Made by a program: the position numbers and the translations under genes. The notes under the pieces were generated by a model. That model was not told the DNA's origin. It worked only from the letters and a program-made list of their open reading frames with translations, and searched no databases. Below, in pieces: positions 713 through 26,990 of a DNA stretch of 28,587 nt (position 1 is the stretch's first letter; each line of letters starts with the position of its first letter). This DNA comes from a virus. The stretch is taken from positions 1 through 28,587 of the IMG/VR virus record IMGVR_UViG_3300048694_001276, one strand, 5' to 3'.

Positions 713-1645
713 ATGAACGCAGTAGACATAGCTGATTTGGATGTGATTTATTTGACCTGGGATGAACCCCAGCGCGAAGAATCCTGGATACGCATACGCA
801 ACATGGTGCCCTGGGCTCGGCGCGTGGATGGTGTCAAAGGGTCTGATGCTGCGCACAAAGCCGCTGCCGAAGCCAGTACCACCGAACGCTTTATCCTGAT
901 CGATGGCGACAACGTGCCTGATCCCGAGTTTTTCAAACTCACGCTGGAATTCCGTGATACCACCTGGCAACAGGCAGTGTATCGTTGGCGGGCACGTAAT
1001 CATGTGAATGGTTTGATCTATGGCAATGGTGGTATCAGTTCTTGGACTCGCGAATTTGCACAGCGTATGCGCACTCACGAAAACAGCGATGGCCGAGCCG
1101 AGACTCAAGTAGAGTTCTGTTTTGATCCGCTCTATTGGCCCATGCATGACTGTTATTCGACAACCTATCCCAATGGTGATGCCTTTCATGCCTGGCGTGC
1201 TGGTTTCCGCGAAGGGGTCAAGATGTGTCTCGATCGTGGGCAACGTCTCTCTCCCAGCGACTTTCAAGCCCGGGTACATCAGCGAAACCTAGATCATCTC
1301 ACCATATGGCACAACATTGGATCGGATGTGGAACACGGTCGTTGGTGCATGGCCGGTGCTAGACAGGGCACCTACATGACCATGCTCACGAACTGGAACT
1401 ACCATGAGGTACAGGATTTTGATGCTCTGGCTCAATTGTGGACCACGGTAGAACAGTCAGATCCGCGTATCCTGGCCGGACAGGTGGGTATTGAATTACA
1501 TGCTCAATTGGATCTACCAGTGGCTCAGTTTGAATCGGAACAGAGCGCATTTTTCAAGCGACATTATCGGAGCAATTGGCGCAATCGTGGCCTCATGACA
1601 CGTGAACAAGATATCGCAACCAGGGAGCCTCATGCTGGAATTTGA
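713..1645 (+). CDS. Glycosyltransferase-like protein (GT-A type), 310 aa
   Basis: ATG at 713 lies one base after the previous TGA, with GGAG about 8 bases upstream. The N-terminal half fits a GT-A nucleotide-sugar transferase: strand VIYLTWDEP (residues 11-19), RVDGVKGSDAAHKAAAEAS (37-55), then ILIDGDNVPD with the DGD metal/nucleotide-binding motif at residues 64-66. Downstream, NGLIYGNGGISSW and AWRAGFREGVKM are shared in pattern with the gene at 11698-13023, so the two are paralogues. The likely role is transfer of a sugar from an NDP-sugar onto a phage or host polymer. Donor and acceptor are unknown. No signal peptide or membrane segment is seen, so it should act in the cytoplasm. Confidence 0.75.
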   Translation: MNAVDIADLDVIYLTWDEPQREESWIRIRNMVPWARRVDGVKGSDAAHKAAAEASTTERFILIDGDNVPDPEFFKLTLEFRDTTWQQAVYRWRARNHVNGLIYGNGGISSWTREFAQRMRTHENSDGRAETQVEFCFDPLYWPMHDCYSTTYPNGDAFHAWRAGFREGVKMCLDRGQRLSPSDFQARVHQRNLDHLTIWHNIGSDVEHGRWCMAGARQGTYMTMLTNWNYHEVQDFDALAQLWTTVEQSDPRILAGQVGIELHAQLDLPVAQFESEQSAFFKRHYRSNWRNRGLMTREQDIATREPHAGI

Positions 1646-2252
1646 CATAGGCGATCGAGACGTCGTGGTGTTGAGTAACTATCGCAGTGGTTCCTCGGCA
1701 TTTGGAAATGTGGTGTCACGTCGATATGGATTGACAGATCTTGGCGAAGCCCTACACCGATTCAAGCACCAACAATGGTACAACCAAAATAAAAAAGCCA
1801 AAAATCTCGTCAAGATCATGCCGGATCATTATGATCATCCCGAGTTTGAGAATATCATGACCAAGTCGTTTGTGATAGGTCTTTCCAGACGAGATGCGGC
1901 AGCACAGATCAGTAGTCTATATATCAGTGACATCACTGGGATATGGCATCGAGATTCTAAATCGCACGATGATTATGAAATCGACATCAATCGCGATCGT
2001 TTGGAAGCTGTAGCCAGGTATGTGCTACATCTGCGAGAGAAATACGAACTCATGCGCGGTCGTTGTGATGTACAATTGGAATATGAAGACATCCTGGATG
2101 GGTTGAAACAATCTCTTTATTTTGTCTATCAGAAACCACAGAACCATCAGGAACTGTTAGCACACGTACAGGACATACTTGAACATCATAACTACACACG
2201 ATTATTAGAACTCACTCACCGGGATTTTGAAACCATATGTCCAACATCTTGA
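1632..2252 (+). CDS. Sulfotransferase-like P-loop protein, 206 aa
   Basis: ATG at 1632 is preceded by GGGAG and overlaps the previous stop by 14 bases. The upstream in-frame start at 1602 has no better ribosome site. Residues 11-22 (VVVLSNYRSGSS) match the 5'-phosphosulfate-binding loop of sulfotransferases (strand followed by (P/Y)RSGS(S/T)). SRRDAAAQISSLY (residues 85-97) resembles the 3'-phosphate-binding R-D-...-S motif. Such enzymes move sulfate from PAPS to a hydroxyl or amine. The next gene is an APS-kinase-like protein, and APS kinase makes PAPS, which supports the assignment. At 206 residues it is shorter than typical sulfotransferases (250-300). It could instead be a kinase-like fold with another donor. 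Confidence 0.65.
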   Translation: MLEFDIGDRDVVVLSNYRSGSSAFGNVVSRRYGLTDLGEALHRFKHQQWYNQNKKAKNLVKIMPDHYDHPEFENIMTKSFVIGLSRRDAAAQISSLYISDITGIWHRDSKSHDDYEIDINRDRLEAVARYVLHLREKYELMRGRCDVQLEYEDILDGLKQSLYFVYQKPQNHQELLAHVQDILEHHNYTRLLELTHRDFETICPTS

Positions 2253-3088
2253 TCATGGGACTGCCTGGGTCGGGCAAGACCTATATGGCACAGGCCCTAA
2301 AACAGTATCTAGAACAACATTGGACCATCGCACACTTGCCCACAGAAGAATTTGCCGGTTTGGGTGAAAATTTTGCCAGTCCCCAGTGTCGGGTCAAGTG
2401 GTTCAACGCCGATGAAGTTCGCAGAGAATACAACGATTGGGATTTCAGCCGCGAAGGTCGCATACGCCAGAGTCTGCGCATGTTGAAGTTTGCACTCAAA
2501 AGTCAGGCCCACTATGCCATTTGCGACTTTGTAGCTCCTTTGCCTGAAATGCGACATAACTTCAAGGCCGATTGGACCATATGGATGGACACCATAGATC
2601 GTGGTCGTTATGAAGATACCAATCAGATGTTCGTGCCACCCGAAATCTATGACTTCCGCATCACCGAAAAAAATGCCGAGCAGTGGTCAGCATACATAGG
2701 TGATCGCATCCTGAATCAAAAGCGTAGACCACAGTTTGACTGGAAGCGACCCACGGTTCAAATGCTGGGACGCTGGCAACCTTGGCATGCCGGACATAGA
2801 GCTCTGTTTGAACGCCTACTGGCACGTACCGGACAAGTCATGATACAGATACGCGATGTGCAAGGTTGGCAGGGCAGTAATCCCTTTGCCATCGAGCAGG
2901 TGAAAAATTTCATCCGGCGTGACCTCGATCCACTCTATCAAGGGCAATATGACATCCAGACCGTACCCAACATCGTACACATAGGTTGGGGTCGTGGCGT
3001 GGGTTACACATCGGGTGAAGAAACATTTGACGACAGCATCACGGCGATCTCGGCCACCCAAATACGTCGGGAGATGGGACTAGAGTGA
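2237..3088 (+). CDS. APS-kinase-like / nucleotidylyltransferase fusion, 283 aa
   Basis: ATG at 2237 overlaps the previous gene by 16 bases. The N-terminal half is a P-loop kinase: Walker A GLPGSGKT at residues 8-15, then FNADEVRREYNDWDFS (56-71) and GRIRQSLRM (74-82), the adenylylsulfate-kinase type motif NaD.VR..ndWDFS..GR.rQ..RM. The C-terminal part from about residue 172 is a short HxGH nucleotidylyltransferase: GRWQPWHAGH (178-187) and ISATQIRREM (271-280), the two ends of an NMN-adenylyltransferase or cytidylyltransferase-like active site. The second domain is much shorter than ATP sulfurylase, so the fusion need not be a full PAPS synthase. Next to a sulfotransferase-like gene, PAPS supply is a fair inference. 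The substrate of the second domain is open. Confidence 0.75.
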   Translation: MSNILIMGLPGSGKTYMAQALKQYLEQHWTIAHLPTEEFAGLGENFASPQCRVKWFNADEVRREYNDWDFSREGRIRQSLRMLKFALKSQAHYAICDFVAPLPEMRHNFKADWTIWMDTIDRGRYEDTNQMFVPPEIYDFRITEKNAEQWSAYIGDRILNQKRRPQFDWKRPTVQMLGRWQPWHAGHRALFERLLARTGQVMIQIRDVQGWQGSNPFAIEQVKNFIRRDLDPLYQGQYDIQTVPNIVHIGWGRGVGYTSGEETFDDSITAISATQIRREMGLE

Positions 3089-4497
3089 ATCCCGGAGACG
3101 AGGTCAATGCGGAGTTCAAGAGCCAGTTTCTCTCCAGTGCCGAACAGATGCATCAGCAGCTGGGACCGGCTCTGTGCTTGGCCAAATGGCAGCAGGTGAG
3201 TCTGCACCTGCCCACTGGACTCAATAATAGTTGCTATCATCCGCCCCTGCATCGCATACCCGTGGAATCTATCGGACGCAATCCTGCAGCCTTGCACAAT
3301 ACCGACTATAAAAAACAGCAACGTCGACTCATGCTGGCCGGTGAACGACCTCGAGAATGCCAGTATTGTTGGAACATGGAAGATCAGGGCAAGCTGAGCG
3401 ATCGGCATTATCGCAGCGGTGAGCCATGGGCGGCTCGAGCATTTGATCACATACGAGATTTCACAGGGGATGAAGATGTTGTTCCCAGCTATGTCGAAGT
3501 CAATTTCAATCATGTTTGCAATCTTAGATGTAGCTATTGCAGCCCTCAGTTCAGTAGCTCATGGGCAGATGAAGTCGCTAGATTGGGAGCATACCCTACA
3601 CTAGTACCTCATAATGCTCCCGAGCATTTTGTTGGGGATCGTCGTCCTATACCTGCCCGTGAACACAATCCCTACGTAGAGGCCTTTTGGTCTTGGTGGC
3701 CCAAACTCTACCCTCAGCTGTCACATTTCCGTATGACTGGCGGAGAACCACTCCTGGATCGTAACACCTATCGCGTGTTTGATTATGTGCTAGAGCATCC
3801 GCGTCCGGATCTACATCTTTGTGTGACCAGTAACTTTTCTGTAGATGAACACAGTTGGCAACGCTACAAAAGTTATCTCCAGAAGCTGTGCCAAGATGGC
3901 CAGCTGGAACATTTCATGCAGTTCGTGAGTCTGGACAGCTGGGGCGATCAAGCTGAATACATACGGCATGGGCTGGACTTTGATCTGCTCTGGGATCGAG
4001 TGAATCAGTTTCTCACTGACATTCCCTCGCGCAATAGCATCACGTTCATAGTCACGATGAACAATCTATCAGTGCCAGGGCTAGAGAAATTGTTTGCAGG
4101 TATCCTGGGCTTGAGGAAAGCCTATAGTCACACCTATCAAAGAATATGGTTTGATACGCCGGTGTTGCGTCAACCGGCCTGGCAGAGTCTACAGATCCTG
4201 CCCGAAAGCTATGTGGATCGGCTGGAGCTGCTCTGGGCCTGGATGTTGCGCCAGATCGAAACGGCCGAGGACCGCTTCCATGGATTCAAGGATTATGAGA
4301 TCGCCCGCCTGGATCGAGACATAGCTTGGATGCGTGATGGGCAGCGGCAGCCCAGTCAAGAACGTCATCGCCACATGGCCGACTTCTATCGTTTCTTCAG
4401 CGAACATGACCGTCGTCGTGGGACAGATTTTTTGTCCACGTTTCCTGAGATGCAAGCCTGGTGGCAAGAATGTGAATATCATGCTCGGAAAGCATAG
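3085..4497 (+). CDS. Radical SAM protein with N-terminal twitch-like Cys segment, module 1 (470 aa)
   Basis: GTG at 3085 overlaps the previous TGA by 4 bases. The radical SAM cluster motif CX3CX2C is CNLRCSYC at residues 145-152, and GGEP, the SAM amino-group motif, is at 219-222. Ahead of the core lie C31 (LCLAKW), C50 (SCYHPP) and C92/C95 (CQYCWNMED), which look like ligands of an auxiliary iron-sulfur cluster. The order is the reverse of usual SPASM/twitch proteins, where the extra cysteines follow the core. The C-terminus ends with a D-RRG-TDF-STFP motif shared with the other modules. A cytoplasmic, oxygen-sensitive modifying enzyme is expected. Substrate unknown; no peptide precursor gene is adjacent. 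Confidence 0.88.
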   Translation: MNPGDEVNAEFKSQFLSSAEQMHQQLGPALCLAKWQQVSLHLPTGLNNSCYHPPLHRIPVESIGRNPAALHNTDYKKQQRRLMLAGERPRECQYCWNMEDQGKLSDRHYRSGEPWAARAFDHIRDFTGDEDVVPSYVEVNFNHVCNLRCSYCSPQFSSSWADEVARLGAYPTLVPHNAPEHFVGDRRPIPAREHNPYVEAFWSWWPKLYPQLSHFRMTGGEPLLDRNTYRVFDYVLEHPRPDLHLCVTSNFSVDEHSWQRYKSYLQKLCQDGQLEHFMQFVSLDSWGDQAEYIRHGLDFDLLWDRVNQFLTDIPSRNSITFIVTMNNLSVPGLEKLFAGILGLRKAYSHTYQRIWFDTPVLRQPAWQSLQILPESYVDRLELLWAWMLRQIETAEDRFHGFKDYEIARLDRDIAWMRDGQRQPSQERHRHMADFYRFFSEHDRRRGTDFLSTFPEMQAWWQECEYHARKA

Positions 4498-5572
4498 ATT
4501 AGCTCTAGATCGATTCACCGAAGCACATTGGATCCTGGAACACTATGCCGATGAGCAGTTTGCTCTATGGAGTGAAATTGTTCCAAGATCCGACACTGTG
4601 TATATCCTGGGACGCGAGGTCCTGGCCCAATCGTTCGCCGATATTCTTACCAGTGATGCCGGTAATCTCGTGTTTTGTAATCTAGCCGAGGGCAGCGAAA
4701 CCATAGAATGGCAGATGTGGAGACTGGGAGTGAGCGATCTTGTGCAGCGTGGACGATTGGGAATCATGCATGGTGGTGATCCTCTAGCACAGCTAGACAG
4801 CGTGAGATCCGACATACATTTCACAAACATAGTGGATTTCGTATCGAATCAACAGGCACATGCGCAGGCATCACAGGTACGAAACCCAGGCCCCAAACCC
4901 TATTCGTTCCTGATGTTGAATGGTCGATTGAGACCGCATCGCAAACACCTGATCGATCTGTTGCGATCTCGGGGGCTACTGGAACAGGCTTTGTGGACCA
5001 ATCTCCAGAGCACCGTAGATCCTCCCACGGGCTCAACTGCACATACCACTGAACCCATAAGATTATTGCCACCCCAGTATGAAATAGAGAGAACCAATCA
5101 GGCACTGCTTGACCAAGGTTGGATCAAGCCCCTATTGTTTGCGGGACTCAGTTGGGGTGATGCTGTGATCAATCCCCGGGCCTATATTGATAGCTATTTT
5201 AGCGTGGTAACCGAAACGGTATTCAGTCATACCTGTTCGTTCTTGACCGAAAAGACCTGGAAGCCCATGATTATGTGTCATCCCTTTGTGATAGCAGCCA
5301 ATCCCGGCTTCTACCGAGATTTGCGACGCAAAGGGTTCCAGACTTTTTCGCATGTGATTGATGAAAGTTTTGATCAGATAGAAAACGAGCAGGATAGAGC
5401 ACTAAGAATAGTTGAAGTTGTTCGAGATATATGCTACAATGGTGCCAGTGACTTCTTGATGTCAACCCAGGAACAGTGTGAGCATAACTATCAACAGCTA
5501 CAGATCTATACCAAACAGCAACGCCAACAACTCGTGATAGACCTTGAAAGATATCTTGACAAACGATCGTGA
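4481..5572 (+). CDS. Glycosyltransferase-like conserved phage protein, 363 aa
   Basis: ATG at 4481 gives MLGKHRLALDRF and a 17-base overlap with the previous gene; the longer reading from 4334 would overlap it by 164 bases. The most telling block is near residues 240-295: YFSVVTETVFS..., FLTEKTWKPMIMCHPFVI, then GFQTFSHVIDESFD. The pattern 'sVvtEt...fiTEKt.Kpi...hPFi...p..l..lr..GF.TF...idEsyD' recurs in phage and bacterial proteins beside glycosyltransferases and resembles the C-terminal Rossmann half of fucosyltransferase-type GT-B enzymes. The first half has no motif I recognise. Its position between two radical SAM genes ties it to their pathway. The glycosyltransferase role is inference. 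Confidence 0.65.
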   Translation: MLGKHRLALDRFTEAHWILEHYADEQFALWSEIVPRSDTVYILGREVLAQSFADILTSDAGNLVFCNLAEGSETIEWQMWRLGVSDLVQRGRLGIMHGGDPLAQLDSVRSDIHFTNIVDFVSNQQAHAQASQVRNPGPKPYSFLMLNGRLRPHRKHLIDLLRSRGLLEQALWTNLQSTVDPPTGSTAHTTEPIRLLPPQYEIERTNQALLDQGWIKPLLFAGLSWGDAVINPRAYIDSYFSVVTETVFSHTCSFLTEKTWKPMIMCHPFVIAANPGFYRDLRRKGFQTFSHVIDESFDQIENEQDRALRIVEVVRDICYNGASDFLMSTQEQCEHNYQQLQIYTKQQRQQLVIDLERYLDKRS

Positions 5573-6896
5573 TTTCCTACATCAGGTACTGAATCCCATC
5601 AGTGCCAGTTTTTGTGCAGCCAAATGGTACAATGCTACCATTTGGTTGGGTAGCGGCATGACTACATCATGCCATCATCCCCCGGCTCATTTGGTAGACA
5701 AAGATAAGGTCCGCACCAACCCTAGGCTGCTGCACAATACCCCTGAGAAAAAACAGGATCGAGCACAGATGCAGGCGGGTCAGCGCCCCCGAGGTTGTGA
5801 ATACTGTTGGAAGATCGAAGATATCAATCGTGATGCCATCAGTGACCGCGTGTACAAAAGCCGCATCTATCCTATACAGGCTCTAGAACAGGCCCGGAAT
5901 ATGCCCACGGATCAGGATGTGAATCTCCGTACCTTGGAAATCAGTTTTGATCGTACCTGCCAGTTCGCTTGCAGTTATTGCAATCCTGCCTTTTCTAGCA
6001 CCTGGGTACGAGACATACAAAACAACGGCGCCTACCAAGCACTCACCAGCGATGGACGCAATCACTTCACCCACACCCACGACAGTGCCCAACTATATCG
6101 ATTTGGTGAAACCAATCCCTATGTAGAGGCCTTCTTTGAGTGGTGGGAAAGTGATCTACATCGTACCCTGCAGGAACTTAGGATCACCGGCGGCGAACCC
6201 TTGATGTCGGGCTACACCTGGAAACTGATTGATTGGTTCAAACACAATCAAGGACGCAGTCAGACTCAGCTGGCCATCAACAGCAATCTTGGCATGCCCC
6301 GGGATCGAGTGGAATATTTTCTGCACAGAGTAGAGGATATCGAGCACCTTGATATCTACACCAGCAATGAAGCCTGGGGTATCCAAGCCGAATATATTCG
6401 CGATGGTCTAGATTTTGGTCAGTGGACAGAAAATGTGCATTTGATCTTGGATCGATCTCACATACGCACTCTGCACAGTATGTGCACCATAAATGCTCTG
6501 TGCCTGGATAGCCTGCCCGAGTACCTGACCTGGCTCCTGGCTCTCAAACAGACCTATGGTCGAGATCGCGTGAGTTTTACCCTCAACATTTTGCGATTCC
6601 CCAGCTTCCAATCATGCCTGGTTCTGCCGCAGTGCTATCGAGACCATTATCGCGAACGTCTAGAAGACTGGCGTGATTACAACCATGACAATCCGCTTTT
6701 GCATGAACATGAACTCAATCATGTGCAACGTTTGATAGACTACCTAGATGTAGTCAAGACACCACACAGCGAATCTTTTGACCTGCCCCAGTTACAACAA
6801 GATTTTCGTATATTCTATCAGCAGTATGATCAACGTCGAGGCAAGGACTTCGTCAAGACATTCCCATATCTCAAGGACTGGTATGAGTCATTATAA
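5556..6896 (+). CDS. Radical SAM protein with N-terminal twitch-like Cys segment, module 2 (about 446 aa)
   Basis: No ATG or GTG is in a suitable place. TTG at 5556 follows GAAAG by six bases and overlaps the previous stop by 17 bases; TTG at 5544 is the alternative. The radical SAM motif is CQFACSYC at residues 135-142 and GGEP at 212-215. N-terminal cysteines are C20 (FCAAKW), C39 (SCHHPP) and C81/C84 (CEYCWKIED). With module 1 it forms a subtype in which the usual CC pair is replaced by C followed by HPP. C-terminal RRGKDFVKTFP repeats the motif of module 1, so the two are paralogues, although a different gene lies between them. Substrate unknown. Confidence 0.87.
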   Translation: MTNDRDFLHQVLNPISASFCAAKWYNATIWLGSGMTTSCHHPPAHLVDKDKVRTNPRLLHNTPEKKQDRAQMQAGQRPRGCEYCWKIEDINRDAISDRVYKSRIYPIQALEQARNMPTDQDVNLRTLEISFDRTCQFACSYCNPAFSSTWVRDIQNNGAYQALTSDGRNHFTHTHDSAQLYRFGETNPYVEAFFEWWESDLHRTLQELRITGGEPLMSGYTWKLIDWFKHNQGRSQTQLAINSNLGMPRDRVEYFLHRVEDIEHLDIYTSNEAWGIQAEYIRDGLDFGQWTENVHLILDRSHIRTLHSMCTINALCLDSLPEYLTWLLALKQTYGRDRVSFTLNILRFPSFQSCLVLPQCYRDHYRERLEDWRDYNHDNPLLHEHELNHVQRLIDYLDVVKTPHSESFDLPQLQQDFRIFYQQYDQRRGKDFVKTFPYLKDWYESL

Positions 6897-9366
6897 AAAT
6901 TTTGAAAATATCAAACCCATTGATCTCAATCCCAAACAGCAATTTTTACTCAAAGAATCCAAGGTTTTTTGTATGTTGCCCTGGGTTCATTTGTATATGA
7001 ATGCGGATGGATCATCTCATCCCTGTTGTCTCACTGATTTTTCGGTTGCCAAACCACTGGGTGATTGTAACACCACTAGCATGGAAGAAATTTGGAACAG
7101 TGAGGGTATGCGTCAATTGCGCAATGACATGTTGATTGGCCAGGCCAGCAAATCATGCAACAAATGTTATGAACAAGAGAAATTTGGCTTTATCAGTCAA
7201 CGACAATCGGCGAACCGCCGTCATGGTCATCATATCCCCATTATAGAAGAAACCAAGTTGGATGGATCGCTTGATAGATTTGAGATGAGGTATTGGGATT
7301 TACGATTTAGCAATCTCTGTAATTTACGCTGTCGCAGTTGTGGTCCACAATTTTCTAGCCAATGGTATCAAGATCAGATACGCATATACGGTCAAGGGTA
7401 TGCAGACAATCATCAGGCATTGCTACATTCCGGCAGATGGGATACTGATATCTTTGATCAGTTGATGTCGCATATAGATCATGTGGAACATATCTATTTT
7501 GCCGGCGGTGAACCCTTGATCATGGAAGAGCATTATCGTATTTTGGATGAATTGATCCGGCGCAAACGATTTGATGTTAGATTGGTTTATAACACCAACT
7601 TTACGCAAACTCGATTGCGGGGGCGTAGTGTGTTTGATTATTGGCGGCAGTTTCAAACTGTGGCAGTTGGCGCCAGTCTTGACGCCATGGGTACCCGGGC
7701 AGAATATATTCGCAAAGGTACGCATTGGCCGGATGTTGAAAACAATCGTAGACACATGATCGAGGTATGCCCCAATGTTGATTTCTACATTTCATCCACG
7801 ATCAGTATTCTCAATGCCTGGCACATACCCGATTTTCATCGTAACTGGACGGAGCAGGGTCTGATCAAAGCACGAGATTTCAATATAAATCTATTGCAAG
7901 GTCCCGACTGGCTGCGACTTGATATCGCACCACAGCATTACAAAGAACTGGTGAAAGAAAAAATACAACAGCACCTGGAATGGTTGAAACCACAAGATGA
8001 TCTCACAAGAGCCACCCTGGGATTTGAAAGCGTGATCAATTTCATGATGAACGATGACAAGAGTGATTATTTGTCTAAGTTCTGGGAATATAATGGTCGG
8101 ATAGACACTGTAAGGAATGAATCTCTGTTTGACGCCATACCCGAACTGAAAAATTTGCTAGAACCAACCAAGACTTTCTGTATGTTGCCCTGGATCAGTC
8201 TGGAAACGTCGGCCACGGGCTCGATACGTCCCTGTTGTCTTGCCAGAGACAATATAACCAATGATCAGGGCGAAAAATTTTCCCTAACCAATGCTGCATT
8301 GAGCGAGGTTCAAAACAGCAATTATATGCGTAACCTACGTAGAGAGTTACTCGAGGGTCGCAAGCCAGACACATGTGCCAGTTGCTGGAATGAGGAGCGA
8401 TCGGGTCGTGTGAGCAAACGCATGAATACCACGCACAAATTACGACATCTGGCGCATCAAATACCGTTCACCACCGATCCTGGTCCTTTGTTGTTTTTGG
8501 ATTTGAAATTGGGCAATTTGTGCAACCTCAAATGTCGTATATGCGGGTCTTGGGCTTCTAGCTCGGCTGCCGTGGAAGAACTACAGCAGTTGAGTCTTGA
8601 TAAACAACGTCAGAGCCATCACTATGATATGTTACGGCGCGGTAATTGGCCTCAAGATAATCCAGGATTTTGGCAACAGATACAGGAACTGTTGGGGCAA
8701 ATACGTTATATAGAGTTTTCAGGTGGTGAACCGTTCATGATCATGCAGCACTTTGATCTACTGGAAAAAATAATACAATATGGTCAAGCCGATAAAGTGG
8801 AAATTCACTACAATACCAACGGCACTCAATGGCCTGCTAGAGGTCCAGATATCTGGAAGCATTTCCAAAAAGTTGAGATAGCATTCAGTATCGATGACAT
8901 CGACCACAGATTTGAATACCAAAGAACCAATGCCAAATGGCAACAGGTGTGTGACACCCTTGATCGATTCAAAGCTCTGCGCGGAATGAATACAAATATA
9001 AAGTTACAAAGTTGTAGCACGGTGAATGTGTTCAATGTCATGTATCTGCCGCAATTGGCCAACTGGCTTGATCGACAGGGTTTTGACTATATCTACTGGA
9101 ATATGTTACATGAACCACTGGATCTTTCATGTGCCAGCCTGAGTGATGACGCAAAACAAATAGCCTGTGGTCGGTTGAAAGAATCTGGTGTGAGAGCCTG
9201 GCATCGGACTGAGTTTGCTCGCATCATAAATTTTATGCAGCAAGCATCTGGTCAGGACAATAAAAAGCTGTTGCGAAAGATCCAAGAACTGGATCGTCGT
9301 CGGCACACTGATTTGAGAAACCATCACCCTGAATTGGCCGCTGCGATTGGTTATGAAGGCAATTGA
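6883..9366 (+). CDS. Tandem double radical SAM protein, two complete N-twitch modules in one chain (827 aa)
   Basis: ATG at 6883 gives MSHYKNFENIK and overlaps the previous gene by 14 bases; extension to 6778 would lie inside that gene. Module A has FCMLPW (C30), CC48-49, C92/C95, CNLRCRSC at 146-153 and GGEP at 208-211. Module B repeats everything about 400 residues later: FCMLPW (C433), CC451-452, C498/C501, CNLKCRIC at 547-554 and GGEP at 614-617. Both halves end with a D-x-R-x-x-(D/S)-L motif followed by a P-E-L element (near 405-422 and 803-818). All cysteines of both cores are intact, so both sites could be active. It may do two successive steps, or one half may act as carrier or partner. 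Confidence 0.9.
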   Translation: MSHYKNFENIKPIDLNPKQQFLLKESKVFCMLPWVHLYMNADGSSHPCCLTDFSVAKPLGDCNTTSMEEIWNSEGMRQLRNDMLIGQASKSCNKCYEQEKFGFISQRQSANRRHGHHIPIIEETKLDGSLDRFEMRYWDLRFSNLCNLRCRSCGPQFSSQWYQDQIRIYGQGYADNHQALLHSGRWDTDIFDQLMSHIDHVEHIYFAGGEPLIMEEHYRILDELIRRKRFDVRLVYNTNFTQTRLRGRSVFDYWRQFQTVAVGASLDAMGTRAEYIRKGTHWPDVENNRRHMIEVCPNVDFYISSTISILNAWHIPDFHRNWTEQGLIKARDFNINLLQGPDWLRLDIAPQHYKELVKEKIQQHLEWLKPQDDLTRATLGFESVINFMMNDDKSDYLSKFWEYNGRIDTVRNESLFDAIPELKNLLEPTKTFCMLPWISLETSATGSIRPCCLARDNITNDQGEKFSLTNAALSEVQNSNYMRNLRRELLEGRKPDTCASCWNEERSGRVSKRMNTTHKLRHLAHQIPFTTDPGPLLFLDLKLGNLCNLKCRICGSWASSSAAVEELQQLSLDKQRQSHHYDMLRRGNWPQDNPGFWQQIQELLGQIRYIEFSGGEPFMIMQHFDLLEKIIQYGQADKVEIHYNTNGTQWPARGPDIWKHFQKVEIAFSIDDIDHRFEYQRTNAKWQQVCDTLDRFKALRGMNTNIKLQSCSTVNVFNVMYLPQLANWLDRQGFDYIYWNMLHEPLDLSCASLSDDAKQIACGRLKESGVRAWHRTEFARIINFMQQASGQDNKKLLRKIQELDRRRHTDLRNHHPELAAAIGYEGN

Positions 9367-10657
9367 TAGACCGCCCAACTTGTGCATGGCCGCTTGGACG
9401 CACACATATCTCAGTCCGCAAACCGAGCGTAGGATGTGTTGTGCCAGTCGTGAACCTGCACAGAATTTCCAACAGTATATCGACACGGCCGCGGGTACCG
9501 GTCGATATATTCCCATCACTCTAGAGGAACACTGGAACTCCGATCACATGCGTGGGGTTCGACAGCGCATGATGGCTGGGGAAACCTTGCCCGAATGTGA
9601 AGTGTGTAATCACAAACTCTTGAACACTGATGTGTATCGTGACTATTTCAATCAGCTGTTTGGCGATCGATATCAAGAGGCCATGAGCAAGACCTCGCCT
9701 GATGGATCCACTGAGATGTTGCCCTTGAGTTGGGACTATCGCTTTTCCAACCTCTGCAATTTCAAGTGTCGCACCTGCGGAGATATGTTGAGCAGCGCCT
9801 GGGAAACCGAACAACGACAATCAGGAACGATTGACTATACAGATTCGCGCAATGCCTGGATGGTGCCCCACGTAAGACGCGAAATCACTCGGTTCCAGGA
9901 CAACGAAATTGAACAGGAATTCGCCGAAGCTGTAGAACAACATCGAGTAGAAGAGATCTACTGGGTAGGCGGTGAGCCTCTCATGTATGAGCAACACTGG
10001 AGATACATGCGCCGCATAATAGAACTAGGTGATGGCCCGCGTGTATATGCCAGATACAACACCAATCTCAGCCGAGTAGATCATGGGGAACTGAATCTAT
10101 GGCGTGATATCTTGGCACATGTACGGGATTGGCAGATCTGCGCCAGCCTAGATGGCACCGGTGCCACGGGCGAGTACATCAGGACTGGATTAGATTTCTC
10201 GCAATGGTGTCGTAACTTTGAACACGGTCTCCGATATCAACGACACAGCCGTCAGATGCGTATTGATTTTACCCTGACATTGCCGGGGCTCTTGGAAGTC
10301 GTCGCTATACAAGAACTGGCCAAAAGTTACAACGTAGATGTTTTGGCCAAAGTAATTTTTAGTTTCAGTCCAAACGTTGTCATGAGTCCCTTGGCATTGC
10401 CTAGACATCTGCTAGAGAAAAAACTAGATGAGTTGATACCCCAGACTCAATCGGCATTGAAAGATGTTTTGATGCAACTCAAGTCTCGTCCTACATTCCA
10501 GGAGCAATGGCCTCAGGAATGGCAACGAGGATTGGCACAGGGGAAACGTAGACTGATGCACCTAGAAAAAATACGCAACGACACCTATACCATGTCAGAT
10601 ATCTTAGCAAAGGATCCCGAACTCTATGAGTGGTGGCAAAATATTAGATCAGATTGA
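9353..10657 (+). CDS. Radical SAM protein with N-terminal twitch-like Cys segment, fifth module (434 aa)
   Basis: ATG at 9353 overlaps the preceding TGA by 14 bases. Core motif CNFKCRTC is at residues 135-142 and GGEP at 206-209. Auxiliary cysteines are C11 (LCMAAW), CC29-30, C82/C85 (CEVCNHK). The CC pair groups it with the two halves of the preceding gene rather than with modules 1 and 2. The segment after the second cysteine pair lacks the W-x-x-E of the others (CEVCNHKLL), a small divergence. The C-terminal TMSDILAKDPELYEWW matches the PEL-type ending of its paralogues. Fifth of five modules in 7.6 kb; substrate unknown. Confidence 0.88.
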   Translation: MKAIDRPPNLCMAAWTHTYLSPQTERRMCCASREPAQNFQQYIDTAAGTGRYIPITLEEHWNSDHMRGVRQRMMAGETLPECEVCNHKLLNTDVYRDYFNQLFGDRYQEAMSKTSPDGSTEMLPLSWDYRFSNLCNFKCRTCGDMLSSAWETEQRQSGTIDYTDSRNAWMVPHVRREITRFQDNEIEQEFAEAVEQHRVEEIYWVGGEPLMYEQHWRYMRRIIELGDGPRVYARYNTNLSRVDHGELNLWRDILAHVRDWQICASLDGTGATGEYIRTGLDFSQWCRNFEHGLRYQRHSRQMRIDFTLTLPGLLEVVAIQELAKSYNVDVLAKVIFSFSPNVVMSPLALPRHLLEKKLDELIPQTQSALKDVLMQLKSRPTFQEQWPQEWQRGLAQGKRRLMHLEKIRNDTYTMSDILAKDPELYEWWQNIRSD

Positions 10658-11705
10658 GATGGTGCTGCGAGGCGCTCATGACCAGATCACTGTCTTGATA
10701 GACGTCAGTGATAACAGTCTCAGTCGCAAGTGGCTATCGGCCCTGGATACGCTCCTGCGTGACGGTTATCATCTCGAAAAGAACTATTGCTTCGTGGGAT
10801 TCGCCGATAGTCCGCGCAATGGCCAGTACATACTGGATCAAGTGAACCGCAGCATCCAGGCCATCAATCAAGCCAACCTAGGCTATCAGATCAGTGATGA
10901 GTTTTCTATCGATTTATGCCTGGAGTCGGGTCCGATCGGTACTGGGCTACCGGGTCGAAAAATCGTGAAGGAACGTCTCAATCGCCTGCATCGTTACTTT
11001 GAAGATCTCCAGGGCGTGAGTGGCCGGATGAGTGTCTATGCACAACGCGCCGACGCTGCCACAAAATGGCATATCCGGCAGCTCAATTTACTGTGCCATG
11101 AGTTTGAATGCTGGGCCACCAGCTACCGCAAACAGATCCAGGCACCCGAATGGCAACGTCCCAGCCAGCTCATGTGTTGGTTGAATGCGCCTAGATTCAC
11201 TCTGGATGAACAGGATTATGAACTGTTTGGCATAGAGACTATCAATCGCTCCCTGGGTGGTGTGTTCGTGGGGGTAAACAAGGCCGTGGGCAAACATCAC
11301 TGGGAGGTGTTCCAAGACGAAGGTCGAGACAGCCGGGTGGGTGAGCTGATTACTAGCACTCTTCGCAGCCAGACCGAAGCTGCTGGGGATTTTGATATCG
11401 AGTGGGCCAATGATCCCGGGCAGTATGAATTCCAACAACGTTCTCTACAGCAATTCCGTGAATGGCTAGTGGCCAATAGATTTGATCCCGATGATCCGGC
11501 ACTGACCATAGGACACCCGCAAGTGGGGCAGGTCCGGATCGAGGAAAGTTTTGGTACCACAGACTTCTGGTCCATATGGCGCATACTGTGTCAGCATCTT
11601 GATGTCGCCAGCATACGTACCGGATCTGCATATCAAGAGTATGACTATCACTGGAGCGATCCGGACTTCCAACAACGACAGATTCGCTGTATCCAACATG
11701 TTTGA
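10626..11705 (+). CDS. Conserved phage protein of unknown function in the radical SAM operon, 359 aa
   Basis: ATG at 10626 overlaps the radical SAM stop by 32 bases. ATG at 10659, one base after that stop, is a plausible alternative and would remove 11 residues. Near the N-terminus LIDVSDNSLSRKWLSAL (residues 23-39) and LEKNYCFVGF (50-59) form a pattern I associate with uncharacterised proteins of T4-like marine phages. No cysteine motif, P-loop, signal peptide or membrane segment is visible. Aromatic and charged residues are spread evenly, as in a soluble enzyme or scaffold. Its strict place behind the radical SAM genes makes it a candidate partner or substrate-binding protein. No function is claimed. 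Confidence 0.75.
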   Translation: MSGGKILDQIEMVLRGAHDQITVLIDVSDNSLSRKWLSALDTLLRDGYHLEKNYCFVGFADSPRNGQYILDQVNRSIQAINQANLGYQISDEFSIDLCLESGPIGTGLPGRKIVKERLNRLHRYFEDLQGVSGRMSVYAQRADAATKWHIRQLNLLCHEFECWATSYRKQIQAPEWQRPSQLMCWLNAPRFTLDEQDYELFGIETINRSLGGVFVGVNKAVGKHHWEVFQDEGRDSRVGELITSTLRSQTEAAGDFDIEWANDPGQYEFQQRSLQQFREWLVANRFDPDDPALTIGHPQVGQVRIEESFGTTDFWSIWRILCQHLDVASIRTGSAYQEYDYHWSDPDFQQRQIRCIQHV

Positions 11706-13023
11706 CGTTTTCATCATGGATCTGGGTGGACATCCGGACAATGTCCAAAACCTCCAGCAACGATTACCCCATGCACAGGTACTGAGATGGACTGATCATC
11801 TGCATACCATCCGGCGCGCCATGTCTCAATGCCGTACTAGATCAGCATGGATCGTGAGCTCGTGTATAGATTACGCTGACTTTGATTGGCTTTGGGAACC
11901 CAGCCCCTGGCAATCGCATCAGATACATTGTTGGCCTAGCGGTCAGCAGAGATTCGGCGATACCTTCTTGATACCCCGGGCCGAATGGGACGCTCAAGTG
12001 GCCGGCCTTGAACGTCTGGAACAATTCCGCGATGTGAACTTTGAACATCAGTCTTTGCCGAGACTGCCCTGGCAGACCGTGCAATACCAACAGGATACCA
12101 TACCCCAGGCCCAGGCGCAGGTAGAGTTCAAGACTCCCTATGTCTGGTTTACTAACCAAAACTCTGTGTATGACACAGATGCTTGGCTATGGCGAGAATC
12201 TCCGGTGGTATCGGAGATCCAGGGCAACGGATCCAGCCTGGTACCTAGATCGGCCCATGCCATGATCAATACACAGGTCTACGACTATCCTTGGTTGGAA
12301 CACGTCCCGGGTGGGTCTCCGACCAACCCTTTAGATATAGTGTTTATCAGCAACGGCGAGCGTGGTGCTTGGGGTAACCTCCTGCACCTCGAATGGGCCG
12401 TACAGAGATGTGACGGTAATCGCATACATCGTGTGGAGGGAGTCCAGGGACGGGTGGCAGCATATCAGGCCGCGGCCCGAGCCAGCCAAACTGACTGGTT
12501 CTTTGCAGTGTTTGCCAAGCTAGAAGTCTCCAGCAATTTTGATTGGTCCTGGCAACCAGACCGATGGCAACAGCCCAAACATTATATCTTTCATGCAGCG
12601 AATCCCATCAATGGTTTGGTATACGGACACCAGGCCATGATTGCCTACAACAAGAATCTGGTGCTAGACAATCCCGGAACTGGGCTGGATTTCACCCTGG
12701 ATCAACCGCACGAAGTGGTACCCATCATATCAGGCACGGCCATGTATTTTGACACACCCTGGATGGCCTGGCGCACAGCATTCCGCGAAGCCATCAAGCT
12801 ACGCCATAGTCTGCCCAACGTGGAAAATCAATATAGATTGAGCCAATGGCTCCGGGAGTCCAACGCTCTCAAGAATGCCGAATGGAGCCACATGGGTGCC
12901 CAAGATGCCATGGAATACTATGACTCAGTTTCGGGTGACTTTGACCAGCTGCGCAAGAGCTACGAGTGGTCCTGGCTGGCTAGCTATGCACTGCTGCGCA
13001 GGAATCTCGCAGCTGATCTATGA
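11698..13023 (+). CDS. Tandem glycosyltransferase-like protein with lost DxD, 441 aa
   Basis: ATG at 11698 overlaps the previous stop by 8 bases. Two similar halves are visible. Residues 1-95 contain FDWLWEPSPWQ (62-72). Residues 212-320 contain DIVFISNGE, RVEGVQGRVAAYQAAARAS (245-263), FDWSWQPDRWQ (281-291) and NGLVYGHQAMIAYNK. The second half aligns by eye with the 310-aa protein at 713-1645, including AWRTAFREAIKL against AWRAGFREGVKM. Where that paralogue has LIDGDNV this one has AVFAKLEV, so the acidic metal motif is gone. It may be a binding or regulatory subunit rather than a transferase. It is the last plus-strand gene and converges with the aminotransferase, overlapping it by 44 bases. 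Confidence 0.7.
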   Translation: MFDVFIMDLGGHPDNVQNLQQRLPHAQVLRWTDHLHTIRRAMSQCRTRSAWIVSSCIDYADFDWLWEPSPWQSHQIHCWPSGQQRFGDTFLIPRAEWDAQVAGLERLEQFRDVNFEHQSLPRLPWQTVQYQQDTIPQAQAQVEFKTPYVWFTNQNSVYDTDAWLWRESPVVSEIQGNGSSLVPRSAHAMINTQVYDYPWLEHVPGGSPTNPLDIVFISNGERGAWGNLLHLEWAVQRCDGNRIHRVEGVQGRVAAYQAAARASQTDWFFAVFAKLEVSSNFDWSWQPDRWQQPKHYIFHAANPINGLVYGHQAMIAYNKNLVLDNPGTGLDFTLDQPHEVVPIISGTAMYFDTPWMAWRTAFREAIKLRHSLPNVENQYRLSQWLRESNALKNAEWSHMGAQDAMEYYDSVSGDFDQLRKSYEWSWLASYALLRRNLAADL

Positions 13024-14101
13024 TATACTCCACTTCGAGATCTGTGAGTTCGGGATAGATAGGCAGACTCAGCACACGCCGGCTCAGTGCTGTGGCCTTG
13101 CTCAACATATCAGGCCCCGGGCAATGCTGATAGGCCCCCATCTCGGTCAGTGGTTGCGAGTAGTGTATGCGGGTTTCTACCCGGCGTAGGGTCATTTGTT
13201 CCTGTATGCGATCGCGTTGATCAGTGTCGATCACAAATTTGTGGAAACAATGATCTTCGACGTTGGTGTCATCTATGAGACAACGCATGGGAGTATCCCG
13301 GAGGCGATCCATCCAATGCCGTGCTATGTCTGATCTGCGCTGTTGCCATTGATCCAAGTGTCGAGTCTTGACCATCATTTGGGCACAATCTACTTCGCTC
13401 ATGCGGCTGTTGGTCACCGCGTGGTTGTGATGAAAGTCGCCCTGGCGTCCGTTGTCCCGCCACTGTCGGGCGAACTCGGCCAACATGACATTGTTGGTGA
13501 GTACGGCACCACCATTGCCAAAATTACCAAGGTTTTTGGTGGGGTCAAAGCTGATGGCAGCGGCATAGCCTATGCGAACACAATTGGCGCTGAGCCAGTG
13601 TTGTGCGGCATCTTCTATCAGTAGGGCAGTGTTGATGTTGAGCATGCGCCAACGATCATAGTTGGGGATATGCACCAGGCTGGCACCATACAATCCCACG
13701 GAGCACACAGCTTCATACTCAACGAGCTCGGGAACACAGTTGAGGTCCAGGATACCGCGACGATCCACATCAACAAAATGTATATTCCACCCGGCTCGCC
13801 ACCAGGCATTGGCCGTGGCTGGATAGGTCAACGCCGGTAACAGCACCCGGGGCGTGGATACGTTGCCATGCTCTTGGGCATAGTATGTGGCTATGACCTC
13901 CAGGGCCTGGGTACCCGAGTGGCACGTTATGGCGTATTGGGTGCGATTGCGCTGGCTCAACCAATGTTCAAACTCCGCGCACCAGTTGCCATTCATGACC
14001 TGGCCACTGCGCAATACTTGATCAGTGACATCCAGGATCTCCTGACGGAGGTTATGATACTGCTTTTGGAGACCAATAAAGGGAATTTTTAAGCCAGTCA
14101 T
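12980..14101 (-). CDS. DegT/DnrJ/EryC1/StrS-type sugar aminotransferase, 373 aa
   Basis: ATG at 14101 gives MTGLKIPFIGLQKQY, the classic family N-terminus; the frame is open 44 codons further up but that would lie inside the epimerase. PLP-binding features are visible: CHSGTQAL at residues 60-67, VLLPALTYPATANA (86-99), LIEDAAQH (161-168) with the acidic residue that contacts the pyridine nitrogen, and FDPTKNLGNFGNGGA (185-199) with the Schiff-base lysine K189. These enzymes transfer an amino group from glutamate to a 3- or 4-keto NDP-sugar. It overlaps the upstream epimerase by 50 bases, and the pair probably makes an amino sugar for the glycosyltransferases on the opposite strand. Confidence 0.88.
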   Translation of the reverse strand: MTGLKIPFIGLQKQYHNLRQEILDVTDQVLRSGQVMNGNWCAEFEHWLSQRNRTQYAITCHSGTQALEVIATYYAQEHGNVSTPRVLLPALTYPATANAWWRAGWNIHFVDVDRRGILDLNCVPELVEYEAVCSVGLYGASLVHIPNYDRWRMLNINTALLIEDAAQHWLSANCVRIGYAAAISFDPTKNLGNFGNGGAVLTNNVMLAEFARQWRDNGRQGDFHHNHAVTNSRMSEVDCAQMMVKTRHLDQWQQRRSDIARHWMDRLRDTPMRCLIDDTNVEDHCFHKFVIDTDQRDRIQEQMTLRRVETRIHYSQPLTEMGAYQHCPGPDMLSKATALSRRVLSLPIYPELTDLEVEYIIDQLRDSCAAVHS

Positions 14102-15023
14102 GGTAAGCCACGAAACCTTGTTCAATGTTGATTTGGGGATCAAAACCCAGATAATCTCGGGCACAATTGATATTGAGAGCACCACGACGTGGATAATCTT
14201 GATTGCGATCCACCACTTCGATACGGCCAGCACCGGCTATGCTCACGGCCAATTCCGCCGCCTCCATCAGGGTGCGAGCATGACCGCGACTGATGTTATA
14301 GGTGTGTATGCGATCATTGTCGGTGATCGCGGCTGCCACTATGCCCGAGGCTGTGTCATCCACGTAGGTAAAATCCAGAGATTCGTTGGGACCATGCACA
14401 CGCAGAGTTTGATCACGCATGGCCGACAGCAAAAATCGGCTCACCACACGATCTTCCACGTCACCGGGTCCATACACCGCACTGGGGCGAACTATGGTGT
14501 AGTCAAAACATCCGCGTCGGTGATAATCACGTACCAACCACTCCCCGGCTAGTTTCATGATACCATACTGACCCTGGGGTTCGCACGAGGACCACTCGGG
14601 ACAATCACCCACGAAGTCACCATAGACCATGCTGCTACTGACATAGACGAACTTTTTGACCCCGTGTTGCTTCGAGTGCTCCAGGAGGTTCAGCAGGCCT
14701 TCGCTCATGGCCCGGCTACCCAATTGGGGATTGGCATTCACAGCTTTTTGTCTGGGAAAGCTGGCTAGGTGTATGACCATGGCGGGTTCGTGTACCCGCA
14801 TCAGATAGTCAATGCCCCCGGCATCGGTGATGTTGATGCTGTGTATGTGTGTGGTACGTATGTTCCGGACTCGTTCCTGCATCACGTAGTCCAGCTCGGC
14901 CTGGGGTATCAGGCCATACGTGGTGCGGGTGTCAGTGATGACGACATCGTGTCCTAGAGCTTCTAGCAGAGCAACCACGCGGTGCCCCACAAACCCTAGA
15001 CCACCAGTGACTAGTATTTTCAT
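14052..15023 (-). CDS. NAD-dependent epimerase/dehydratase (extended SDR), 323 aa
   Basis: ATG at 15023 has AGGTGG about 8 bases upstream; GTG at 15032 is a weaker option. The ATG overlaps the upstream TGA as ATGA. The NAD-binding glycine motif GGLGFVG is at residues 7-13, the acidic residue D31 follows strand 2, SSSMVYG lies near 129-135, and the YxxxK catalytic pair is Y153/K157. RPSAVYGPGD and FTYVDD are further family landmarks. Members epimerise, dehydrate or reduce NDP-sugars; the exact reaction cannot be read. Together with the aminotransferase directly downstream it suggests an NDP-amino-sugar branch. Confidence 0.88.
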   Translation of the reverse strand: MKILVTGGLGFVGHRVVALLEALGHDVVITDTRTTYGLIPQAELDYVMQERVRNIRTTHIHSINITDAGGIDYLMRVHEPAMVIHLASFPRQKAVNANPQLGSRAMSEGLLNLLEHSKQHGVKKFVYVSSSMVYGDFVGDCPEWSSCEPQGQYGIMKLAGEWLVRDYHRRGCFDYTIVRPSAVYGPGDVEDRVVSRFLLSAMRDQTLRVHGPNESLDFTYVDDTASGIVAAAITDNDRIHTYNISRGHARTLMEAAELAVSIAGAGRIEVVDRNQDYPRRGALNINCARDYLGFDPQINIEQGFVAYHDWLKNSLYWSPKAVS

Positions 15024-15259
15024 CGGGGCCACCTGAGATAATATTCAGTCAGGGCCGGACCATCTACTTCGCCCACTATGGATATGACCGTGACCCAATA
15101 GGTCATGTTTTGGCCATGAAGGGTCCGGATATTTTGGGAATGAGCACGAGCCCATTGACCCCGGGGTGTCTCCAGCCACTGTTCTATCGCCTGGCAGCAC
15201 CGATCATCGGGCTGTTCGGCCCAGTGGTTCATGGTCAAGGTATCAAACAGGATCTGCAT
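15020..15259 (-). CDS. Small protein of unknown function, 79 aa
   Basis: ATG at 15259 and TGA overlapping the epimerase ATG by 4 bases place it firmly in the operon. The sequence is acidic to neutral with many aromatics: NHWAEQPDDRCCQAIEQW in the first third and a C-terminal YYLRWPR. No domain is recognised. An extended -10 box (TGCTATAAT) ends six bases before the ATG, so it may be translated from a leaderless transcript as well as from the longer thyX message. Confidence 0.65.
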   Translation of the reverse strand: MQILFDTLTMNHWAEQPDDRCCQAIEQWLETPRGQWARAHSQNIRTLHGQNMTYWVTVISIVGEVDGPALTEYYLRWPR

Positions 15260-22690: not shown

Positions 22691-22710
22691 TACCAAACAG
22701 CTACAAATAG

Positions 22711-22734
22711 AAAAGCCCACCGAAGTGGGCTTTT
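22711..22734. terminator. Two-way Rho-independent terminator
   Basis: Symmetrical hairpin AAAAGCCCAC CGAA GTGGGCTTTT, with A-run and T-run on both sides. It can end the plus-strand oxygenase transcript and the minus-strand tmRNA transcript. Confidence 0.93.
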
Positions 22735-22776
22735 GGAAGATTCTGTTTCTTGGGCTCCCACCCTCAGCAGCCGGTT

Positions 22777-22809
22777 TTAAGCGGCCAATGCGTAGACGTT
22801 GTCGTTTGC
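22777..22809 (-). other. tmRNA tag reading frame (ANDNVYALAA, stop TAA)
   Basis: Resume codon GCA at 22809 is preceded by TAGAC, close to the E. coli TAGTC. Ten codons read ANDNVYALAA, then TAA. The end ALAA is the signal recognised by ClpXP-type proteases, and the start AND is usual in beta/gammaproteobacterial tags. Confidence 0.93.
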
Positions 22810-22811
22810 GT

Positions 22812-23009
22812 CTAGAGTTTTGCTTCATTAACGACGATCGCCTGTCGTGCTGTCTGTTCCGTTACTCCTTGCCCTGTCGAAACCTTGTCACCCCCATCAG
22901 AAAGAATCTCTTTCATAACCTCAACTCGTCCATCTATGTGTTCGTAAATACCATATTGTATGTTATCACAAACAAATAAGATTCTTCTAAGTTTTGGTTT
23001 AGCCTGCAT
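22812..23009 (-). CDS. Possible small protein overlapping the tmRNA spacer, 65 aa
   Basis: ATG at 23009 has GGGA eight bases upstream and begins in the spacer between the tmRNA acceptor and coding parts. The first 40 residues (MQAKPKLRRILFVCDNIQYG... EVMKEILSDGG) look like ordinary protein, but the remaining 25 codons run through the tmRNA coding part, ending at the TAG just before the resume codon. It may be a relic interrupted by the tmRNA, a genuine overlapping gene, or chance. Confidence 0.28.
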   Translation of the reverse strand: MQAKPKLRRILFVCDNIQYGIYEHIDGRVEVMKEILSDGGDKVSTGQGVTEQTARQAIVVNEAKL

Positions 23010-23130
23010 AAAAAATCCCTTTTGGTGGAGGTGAGGAGAATCGAACTCCTGTCCAGAACACCTTTCTCTTCACTTCATACAGCAATACTTCAAACATGTC
23101 GCAACCGACGGGGCGTGTGGATCCTGCGAC

Positions 23131-23340
23131 CAGACGTGCTGTCTCGCACAGCACCAACCTTGCAAGTAGATAGAATCTAGAGCTACTTGGGGTTTACCCC
23201 CGCCCGGCGTAAAACTATTTACCGGTTACCAAATCCGGTGCAATCGTTAGGTCATTGCGGCTCGGCATTGCTAGCAAGTCACCCCATCATGTTCGGCGTG
23301 CCTCCGGCAGAGACCCGGGTCGATAGCCACCCATTTGGGT
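23131..23340 (-). other. Highly structured RNA region continuous with the tmRNA acceptor part
   Basis: No convincing gene covers these 210 bases. Several inverted repeats follow one another: GTGCTGT/ACAGCAC (23136-23154), CAAGTAG/CTACTTG (23163-23189), GGGG/CCCC (23189-23200), ACCGG/CCGGT (23221-23239), GCAAT/ATTGC (23240-23258), TTGCTAGCAA (23268-23277), GACCCGGGTC (23312-23321), ACCCATTTGGGT (23329-23340). GTCGCA/TGCGAC (23098-23130) links them to the acceptor arm. They may be tmRNA pseudoknots kept on the acceptor side, or a separate RNA. Confidence 0.6.
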
Positions 23341-25363: not shown

Positions 25364-25646
25364 CCGTTTTAGGTTCCCACAGTTGATAGCTGACGATTTG
25401 CCTACCATCCCCGCCGATGTAACAACCATGACTGTGCCAGTATTCTTCATGCTCAGCATCGCGGATCACAGCAAAAGGCGTGCTACCAATATGTCGTGCT
25501 TGGACCTCTGAACCCGCAGCAAAGACGCTGGTGCCATCATCCTGGGAAACGCCGGAGTGGTCGCTGTAGTCGGTGGCCACGGGCCTAAACACTGATCCGT
25601 CGGTTCTCACATAAAGCCCATGTGTGTCGGATTTTACTCGAGTCAT
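25350..25646 (-). CDS. Hypothetical protein, 98 aa
   Basis: ATG at 25646 overlaps the rtcB stop as ATGA; a longer frame upstream lies in rtcB. The protein reads TRVKSDTHGLYVRTDGSVFRP at its start, then HEEYWHSHGCYIGGDGRQIVSY, a beta-rich chain with several histidines that may form a small SH3-like or metal-binding fold. No family recognised. Coupled translation with rtcB suggests functional association. Confidence 0.68.
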   Translation of the reverse strand: MTRVKSDTHGLYVRTDGSVFRPVATDYSDHSGVSQDDGTSVFAAGSEVQARHIGSTPFAVIRDAEHEEYWHSHGCYIGGDGRQIVSYQLWEPKTVDLE

Positions 25647-26836: not shown

Positions 26837-26846
26837 AACCGTTCCC

Positions 26847-26990
26847 TTAGATTTTGATGGCCGTGACGCAGTCAGCGACACGGCGATGCTTGAACGCAAA
26901 ATACTCGCGGACTCGCTTTTCGTCTTTGCCCGTCATGAACTTGACTTTTTGCGTTCCATTTTTCAACGTATATGCAACTTTGAAAAGCAT
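26847..26990 (-). CDS. Small basic protein upstream of rtcB, 47 aa
   Basis: ATG at 26990 is preceded by AAGGAG seven bases upstream and a promoter ends 27 bases before it; rtcB follows after ten bases. The protein reads MLFKVAYTLKNGTQKVKFM... and ends CVTAIKI: a beta hairpin then a basic helix (KDEKRVREYFAFKHRR), a likely small nucleic-acid-associated or adaptor protein. Its leader nearly equals that of the 58-aa gene at 21165. No family assigned. Confidence 0.75.
   Translation of the reverse strand: MLFKVAYTLKNGTQKVKFMTGKDEKRVREYFAFKHRRVADCVTAIKI

Follow-up and report, generated by a model that had tools for sequence, protein, structure and literature searches.

Proteins that carry two radical S-adenosylmethionine (SAM) domains in one chain have a described representative in FbiC, the FO synthase, a fusion of CofG and CofH whose two radical SAM domains are separate proteins in other organisms; this double protein runs two steps, and its intermediate is reported to diffuse (PMC8498797; here and below, statements from cited papers refer to excerpts of them). 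Radical SAM genes are also on record in phages: pelagimyophages carry radical SAM cassettes in a host recognition cluster together with tail fibres and glycosyltransferases (PMC7029224), the T4-like marine genome TARA_ERS488813_N000010 holds 12 radical SAM genes (PMC5332604), and a Baikal study ties the radical SAM proteins of a phage group, which may or may not be of the family treated here, to pyrroloquinoline quinone synthesis (PMC7678222). Here we describe, in a viral DNA of 28,587 bases (IMG/VR record IMGVR_UViG_3300048694_001276; the window analysed is this complete record of the virus collection), an open reading frame (ORF) in which two N-twitch radical SAM units, A and B, are fused. 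Like FbiC, which thus offers a working precedent, it has two radical SAM domains in one chain that are split in other organisms, but the two proteins probably belong to different radical SAM families, and no CofG/CofH profile was among the 25 NCBIfam matches listed of 27. The pelagimyophages and the T4-like genome resemble the window in having several radical SAM genes in large phages, whereas the family, the five-unit order and the fusion described below are not named in the excerpts of those papers (PMC7029224, PMC5332604). In the excerpts of the literature searched, we found no description of the A-B fusion or of the five-unit order, nor was a substrate of the N-twitch family found named in that literature. 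What our analysis confirms is a rare but repeated fusion within a widespread phage cassette of five radical SAM units.

The fused ORF lies on the plus strand at 6883..9366 and forms a single open frame of 827 residues, from an ATG at 6883 to the stop ending at 9366; a longer in-frame start, TTG at 6778, merely overlaps the gene upstream. The whole protein reaches 741.6 bits against NF033640 (N_Twi_rSAM) in two matches; scored singly, unit A (residues 1-425, 6883..8157) gives 410.4 bits at 6958-8157 and unit B (residues 426-827, 8158..9363) 343.2 bits at 8170-9342. Each half thus stands far above the curated cut-off of 170 bits over the full profile, and CxxxCxxC, GGE and the N-terminal four-Cys twitch are all present in both; unlike NF033640, the phage protein has two units in one chain and sits within a block of five. 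In unit A, the twitch cysteines 30/49/92/95 (6970..7167; PF13186 at residues 30-96) precede the radical SAM motif CNLRCRSC at residue 146 (7318..7341) and a GGEP at residue 208 (7504..7515), while in unit B the twitch cysteines 433/452/498/501 (8179..8385) are followed by CNLKCRIC at residue 547 (8521..8544) and GGEP at residue 614 (8722..8733), all on the plus strand. A preliminary description, made from the letters of this DNA, had proposed two complete N-twitch units in the 827-residue chain, spaced by about 400 residues and similar at their ends, and this architecture is borne out: each half has its sets of three and four cysteines plus GGEP, the CxxxCxxC motifs are 401 residues apart, and the halves end in RNESLFDAIPEL and RRHTDLRNHHPEL. 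Self-alignment pairs 375 residues of the halves at 31.5% identity, with z = 89 relative to 50 shuffles, which rules out chance likeness.

Further units of the same family flank the fused ORF, all on the plus strand: R1 (3085..4497; 312.8 bits against NF033640), R2 (5544..6896; 290.8 bits) and R5 (9347..10657; 279.8 bits), the latter two overlapping the fused ORF by a few bases, so that the window holds five N-twitch radical SAM units in four genes (R1, R2, A-B, R5). The exact order R1-R2-A-B-R5 recurs in 28 of the 58 loci of a first scan, with four more in which one unit is doubled, and none of these 58 loci contains a two-unit ORF. Where A and B are split, most of the gene pairs share bases at the junction, 4 to 56 of them among the first-scan loci listed; over all viral loci, 125 of 141 distinct adjacent A-B pairs overlap. 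Loci were then gathered by profile scans with A and B orthologues, keeping for each the best 80 of at least about 600 matches (totals are therefore lower bounds), and by a further scan that used a single fused protein. Some of the loci cover overlapping parts of the same contig, and counts of distinct pairs and proteins merge identical ones. B is the next radical SAM gene in 59 of the 80 loci fetched by A, with three more fused and two in which the contig ends there, and A precedes B in 69 of the 80 fetched by B. The fusion is thus the minority state of a widespread five-unit cassette, A and B being separate proteins in most relatives. Separately, 30 A-type ORFs (L006, L007, L025, L111, L140 and others) bear an N-terminal extension of about 130 residues, for which the L007 piece gave no Pfam match.

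The same fusion occurs elsewhere. Across 224 records (the window and loci L006-L228, five of them, L064-L068, unrelated) with 1005 radical SAM-unit ORFs, four ORFs contain two units, and all four are A-B: those of the window, L189, where the ORF is cut by the contig end, L190 and L220. The scan with one fused protein found the fusion in 13 of 29 loci, two of them on the already counted contigs of L190 and L220. The search of other genomes that the preliminary description had suggested thus yields 14 IMG/VR contigs with this fusion besides the window, which form one clade (the L190 clade) and encode nine distinct proteins, or ten with the window's. Throughout this clade the halves are joined by an LGINKTHDN-like linker, kept through up to about 25% DNA divergence. 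No fusion of other neighbours was found among 63 adjacent R1-R2, 153 R2-A and 117 B-R5 pairs.

Do these fused proteins descend from one joining event? In trees of A and B with 34 sequences each, drawn from 171 A and 154 B sequences (the four fused rows then known, their nearest rows and the most different rows), the window lies away from the L190 clade, on a long branch of its own (0.77 in the A tree, 0.66 in the B tree). In the approximately unbiased (AU) test, all fused forms as one group are rejected (p = 0.0105 for A, 1.2e-13 for B), the group being defined by ORF structure and quick trees having been inspected beforehand. When the whole fusion was aligned together with split A and B proteins, orthologues of A fell on the B half, and this alignment was set aside. 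By rejecting a single origin, the trees indicate that A and B were joined twice, separately, in two virus lineages. Within the L190 clade, comparison of L190 with L220, L233, L231 and L241 gave ratios of nonsynonymous to synonymous substitution rates (dN/dS) of about 0.03-0.06 in both halves, with dN 0.03-0.07 and dS about 1.0-1.2; for more distant pairs of the clade, dS is saturated or undefined. Because both halves are under strong purifying selection and the linker is kept to about 25% DNA divergence, the sequences identify the fusion in this clade as genuine. In two of its members, L235 and L236, the last 24 codons before the first Cys of B hold no in-frame ATG, GTG or TTG, so B is probably made there solely as part of the fusion.

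In the window, A and B meet at 8140..8180 (plus strand), at the place of the stop/start overlap of most relatives. Fusing a pair whose genes already overlap takes little change and hence can arise easily. Alternatively, the window's fusion could stem from a local mistake in sequence or assembly, with A and B in the actual virus being overlapping genes as in most relatives. This would agree with the absence of the fusion from all 58 loci found first (0/58), with the window's closest relatives in the A tree (L157, L149, L129, L144 and L130) all being split, and with a run of five A under the joined frame, since a one-base length change near the join would part A and B into separate genes. However, a genuine fusion of this pair exists in another clade, in the rest of the 827 codons the frame is unbroken and both halves can be aligned, and relatives differ from the window at the join by more than one base, as judged by eye; we consider such an error unlikely. 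The recurrence elsewhere makes a genuine fusion in the window more likely, without itself checking this contig. A chimeric assembly of unrelated sequences was rejected as the main explanation because A-B is the native gene order. The nearest relatives found for the window reach about 58% identity at most (first scan, A and B profile scans, quick trees), and a degenerate scan for a nearer one, placed at the end of A, returned five loci (L064-L068), none related by tblastn. An in-frame TTG at the window's join means that a separate B may also be produced by internal initiation.

As to whether both halves are catalysts, all seven cysteines and GGE are kept in 214/214 A and 171/171 B sequences, and in 10/10 fused copies for each half; the P of GGEP in unit A is kept in 200/214. 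This invariance was partly selected by the fetch, which used short peptide patterns, some over conserved motifs (A2: YFAGGEP, CR[ST]CG; A3: CNLKCRI); the twitch cysteines lie outside the A2 and A3 patterns but are nonetheless covered by two first-scan patterns and one pattern of the fused-protein scan. Pseudo-enzyme halves are common in duplicated enzyme pairs, and one half might accordingly be a regulatory or structural pseudo-enzyme, yet the seven cysteines and GGE are invariant in both halves and purifying selection is similarly strong on both, which makes this very improbable. Structure models, each of a single half, were confident for unit A (predicted local distance difference test score 90.9, predicted template modelling score 0.89) and for unit B (88.9 and 0.87), and both are predicted to be radical SAM folds (Foldseek for A only, VIA-align for both). 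The A model ties between BlsE (Z 12.8, root-mean-square deviation (rmsd) 3.5, 218 residues aligned) and SkfB (Z 12.7, rmsd 3.9, 227 aligned), and the B model matches SkfB (Z 11.6, rmsd 4.1, 227 aligned), a viperin-like enzyme (11.5, 3.5, 197) and BlsE (11.3, 3.7, 210). At the sequence level, the only PDB matches of the A profile are to the twitch of BtrN (E 0.003), with nothing beyond the twitch aligned, and the best PDB match of the B profile is SkfB (E 1e-4). BtrN is an aminocyclitol dehydrogenase. The phage units thus share the radical SAM fold with BtrN, BlsE and SkfB, but identity in the BlsE and SkfB fold matches is 15-18%, and the phage units have a Cys-rich domain N-terminal to the core. 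CofG/CofH entries were not among the structure matches listed, which excludes nothing.

Taken together, sequence, conservation and models support two complete centres in one chain, as the preliminary description had it; the two consecutive reactions or substrate handover that it read into this arrangement are plausible only. We envisage the fused ORF as encoding a bifunctional enzyme, in which the paralogues A and B, usually separate proteins, would work from one chain. Two [4Fe-4S] clusters are expected per half, a SAM-cleaving one at CxxxCxxC and an auxiliary one in the N-terminal twitch. In twitch/SPASM enzymes, the auxiliary cluster serves electron transfer or substrate binding; likewise, SAM cleavage in each phage half would take place on that half's own cluster, with the twitch cluster in one of these roles. 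A and B may act on the same substrate or on successive intermediates, R1, R2 and R5 would supply further steps, and the product formed in the host-recognition region could be a modified sugar or glycan. A and B adjoin each other in most genomes and were fused twice, unlike R2-A, B-R5 and R1-R2, which supports a functional link; that fusion befell the same pair twice, and was retained under strong selection in one clade, speaks for a task in common. On this sequence evidence we lean, by a small margin over even, towards A and B being a linked functional pair with both members catalytically active.

A linked pair could nonetheless work without handover, as in FbiC: both centres would be active but independent, and the joining would serve only matched dosage and co-localisation. 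In favour of this, overlap between most of the split genes suggests that their translation is already coupled; against it, this one pair was joined on two occasions and no other overlapping neighbours were, two events being a small number. We regard this as possible, if somewhat improbable. Direct handover is not a necessity, in that the halves are separate in most relatives and the FbiC intermediate is reported to diffuse (PMC8498797), so that a fusion is no proof of it; we hold handover between A and B to be less probable still than the sugar or glycan substrate, which itself is a tentative reading somewhat short of an even chance. It is tempting to speculate on a five-step radical SAM assembly line in large phages, spread over hundreds of contigs and making a novel glycan or virion-protein modification, whose A-B core pair passes an oxygen-sensitive intermediate directly and is hence alone fused, twice, but this full picture is quite unlikely.

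The sugar reading draws on gene context: a glycosyltransferase-like gene, a carbamoyltransferase, a GDSL-like hydrolase, an aminotransferase and an epimerase, beside virion-like genes. In the window, a glycosyltransferase-like gene of family f2 lies at 713..1645 (PF13641 E=0.0012, below the cut-off; f2 in 48 loci), followed by a P-loop kinase plus nucleotidyltransferase-like gene at 2237..3088 (PF01583, PF08433; weak matches to nicotinamide-nucleotide adenylyltransferase models) and a conserved gene of family f6 at 4334..5572 (start probably later; 38.6% identity to L062, no Pfam match). A gene of family f7 adjoins R5 at 10626..11705 (63% identity over 355 residues to L030; 33 loci; no Pfam or PHROG match for the L030 member) and is perhaps a dedicated partner of the cassette, and a second, longer f2-family gene follows at 11551..13023 (start probably later), all on the plus strand. 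On the minus strand lie a DegT/DnrJ sugar aminotransferase family gene at 12980..14233 (PF01041 E=5.7e-56) and an NAD-dependent epimerase/dehydratase at 14052..15032 (PF01370 E=1.1e-41). Related loci have virion-like genes (f11 among them), f4 and the glycosyltransferase-like f2 before the block, f7, a GDSL-like hydrolase, a Nol-like carbamoyltransferase and f2 after it, and an aminotransferase (f13) and an epimerase (f14) on the opposite strand; the assignment of f4 as a glycosyltransferase is a guess based on inspection of its sequence, which has no Pfam match. Family f11 is a PHROG virion structural protein with relatives in Phosso, Atu_ph07 and PA5oct-like phages, one of them annotated as baseplate wedge subunit and tail pin. 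The cassette probably works in building the host-recognising surface.

The cassette might instead modify a peptide or virion protein, in a manner like that of ribosomally synthesised and post-translationally modified peptides or as tail-fibre modification. The best fold matches include SkfB, CteB, SuiB and anSME, enzymes with peptide or protein substrates, and the block stands beside the virion-like genes f11 and f8 in related loci; yet by eye no clear precursor-like core is apparent in f9, f17 and f20, small conserved genes nearby, and several enzymes around the block look sugar-directed, which leaves a peptide or protein substrate doubtful. Several observations weigh against a linked A-B pair acting on a sugar. 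A single contig carries the window's join, and no near relative confirms the open frame; in 16 of the 80 A-fetched loci, fused cases and contig ends set apart, the radical SAM gene that follows A is not B; the fold neighbours BlsE, SkfB, CteB, anSME and viperin are near-tied and name no substrate; and the gene neighbours of bacterial relatives lack a strong sugar signal (GDSL-2 in five and GT2 in three of the 86 scanned, out of 246 candidate neighbours).

In bacteria, a scan of genome contigs gave 79 loci, 60 of them with one unit. A Bacteriovoracaceae contig (L260:6040-18036) carries eight N-twitch radical SAM genes within 12 kb. Among bacterial metagenome-assembled genomes, one (L261:3462-6782) encodes a protein of 1106 residues in which TPR repeats stand between two A-like units (A-TPR-A), and two others (L301:6906-9113, L324:7038-9245) a protein of 735 residues, which in L301 combines an N-twitch unit with a second radical SAM match behind it. 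These double proteins show that the joining of two radical SAM units has happened in other forms within the wider family. In the 255-kb record of Vibrio phage K566 (L337:12010-16412), three radical SAM genes (0303, 0305 and 0306) lie close together, with one unknown gene between; this phage may serve as a distant model that can be cultivated.

The source virus is a probable jumbo phage: the nearest isolates are the jumbo phages PA5oct, Atu_ph07 and Phosso, and relatives' contigs reach 346,856 bases. Two window genes, which we take to be MoxR-like and VWA-like, are nearest to jumbo phages at 47-49% identity. A permuted transfer-messenger RNA (tmRNA) of betaproteobacterial type lies on the minus strand at 22709-23135 (Rfam beta_tmRNA 147 bits, E 2e-45; tmRNA_permuted 145.9 bits; ARAGORN tag ANDNVYALAA), and its type hints at a betaproteobacterial host. 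About 2.5 kb from it, on the same strand, is an RtcB RNA ligase gene (25646-26899; PF01139 E 1.9e-129).

A pair of genes fused twice independently is a classical sign of two proteins working together. The fusion thereby points to A and B as the two of the five enzymes to co-express first, and itself provides a construct with both in a single chain. Should the product be a surface modification, the cassette would represent new phage chemistry for host recognition or for the exclusion of competitors.

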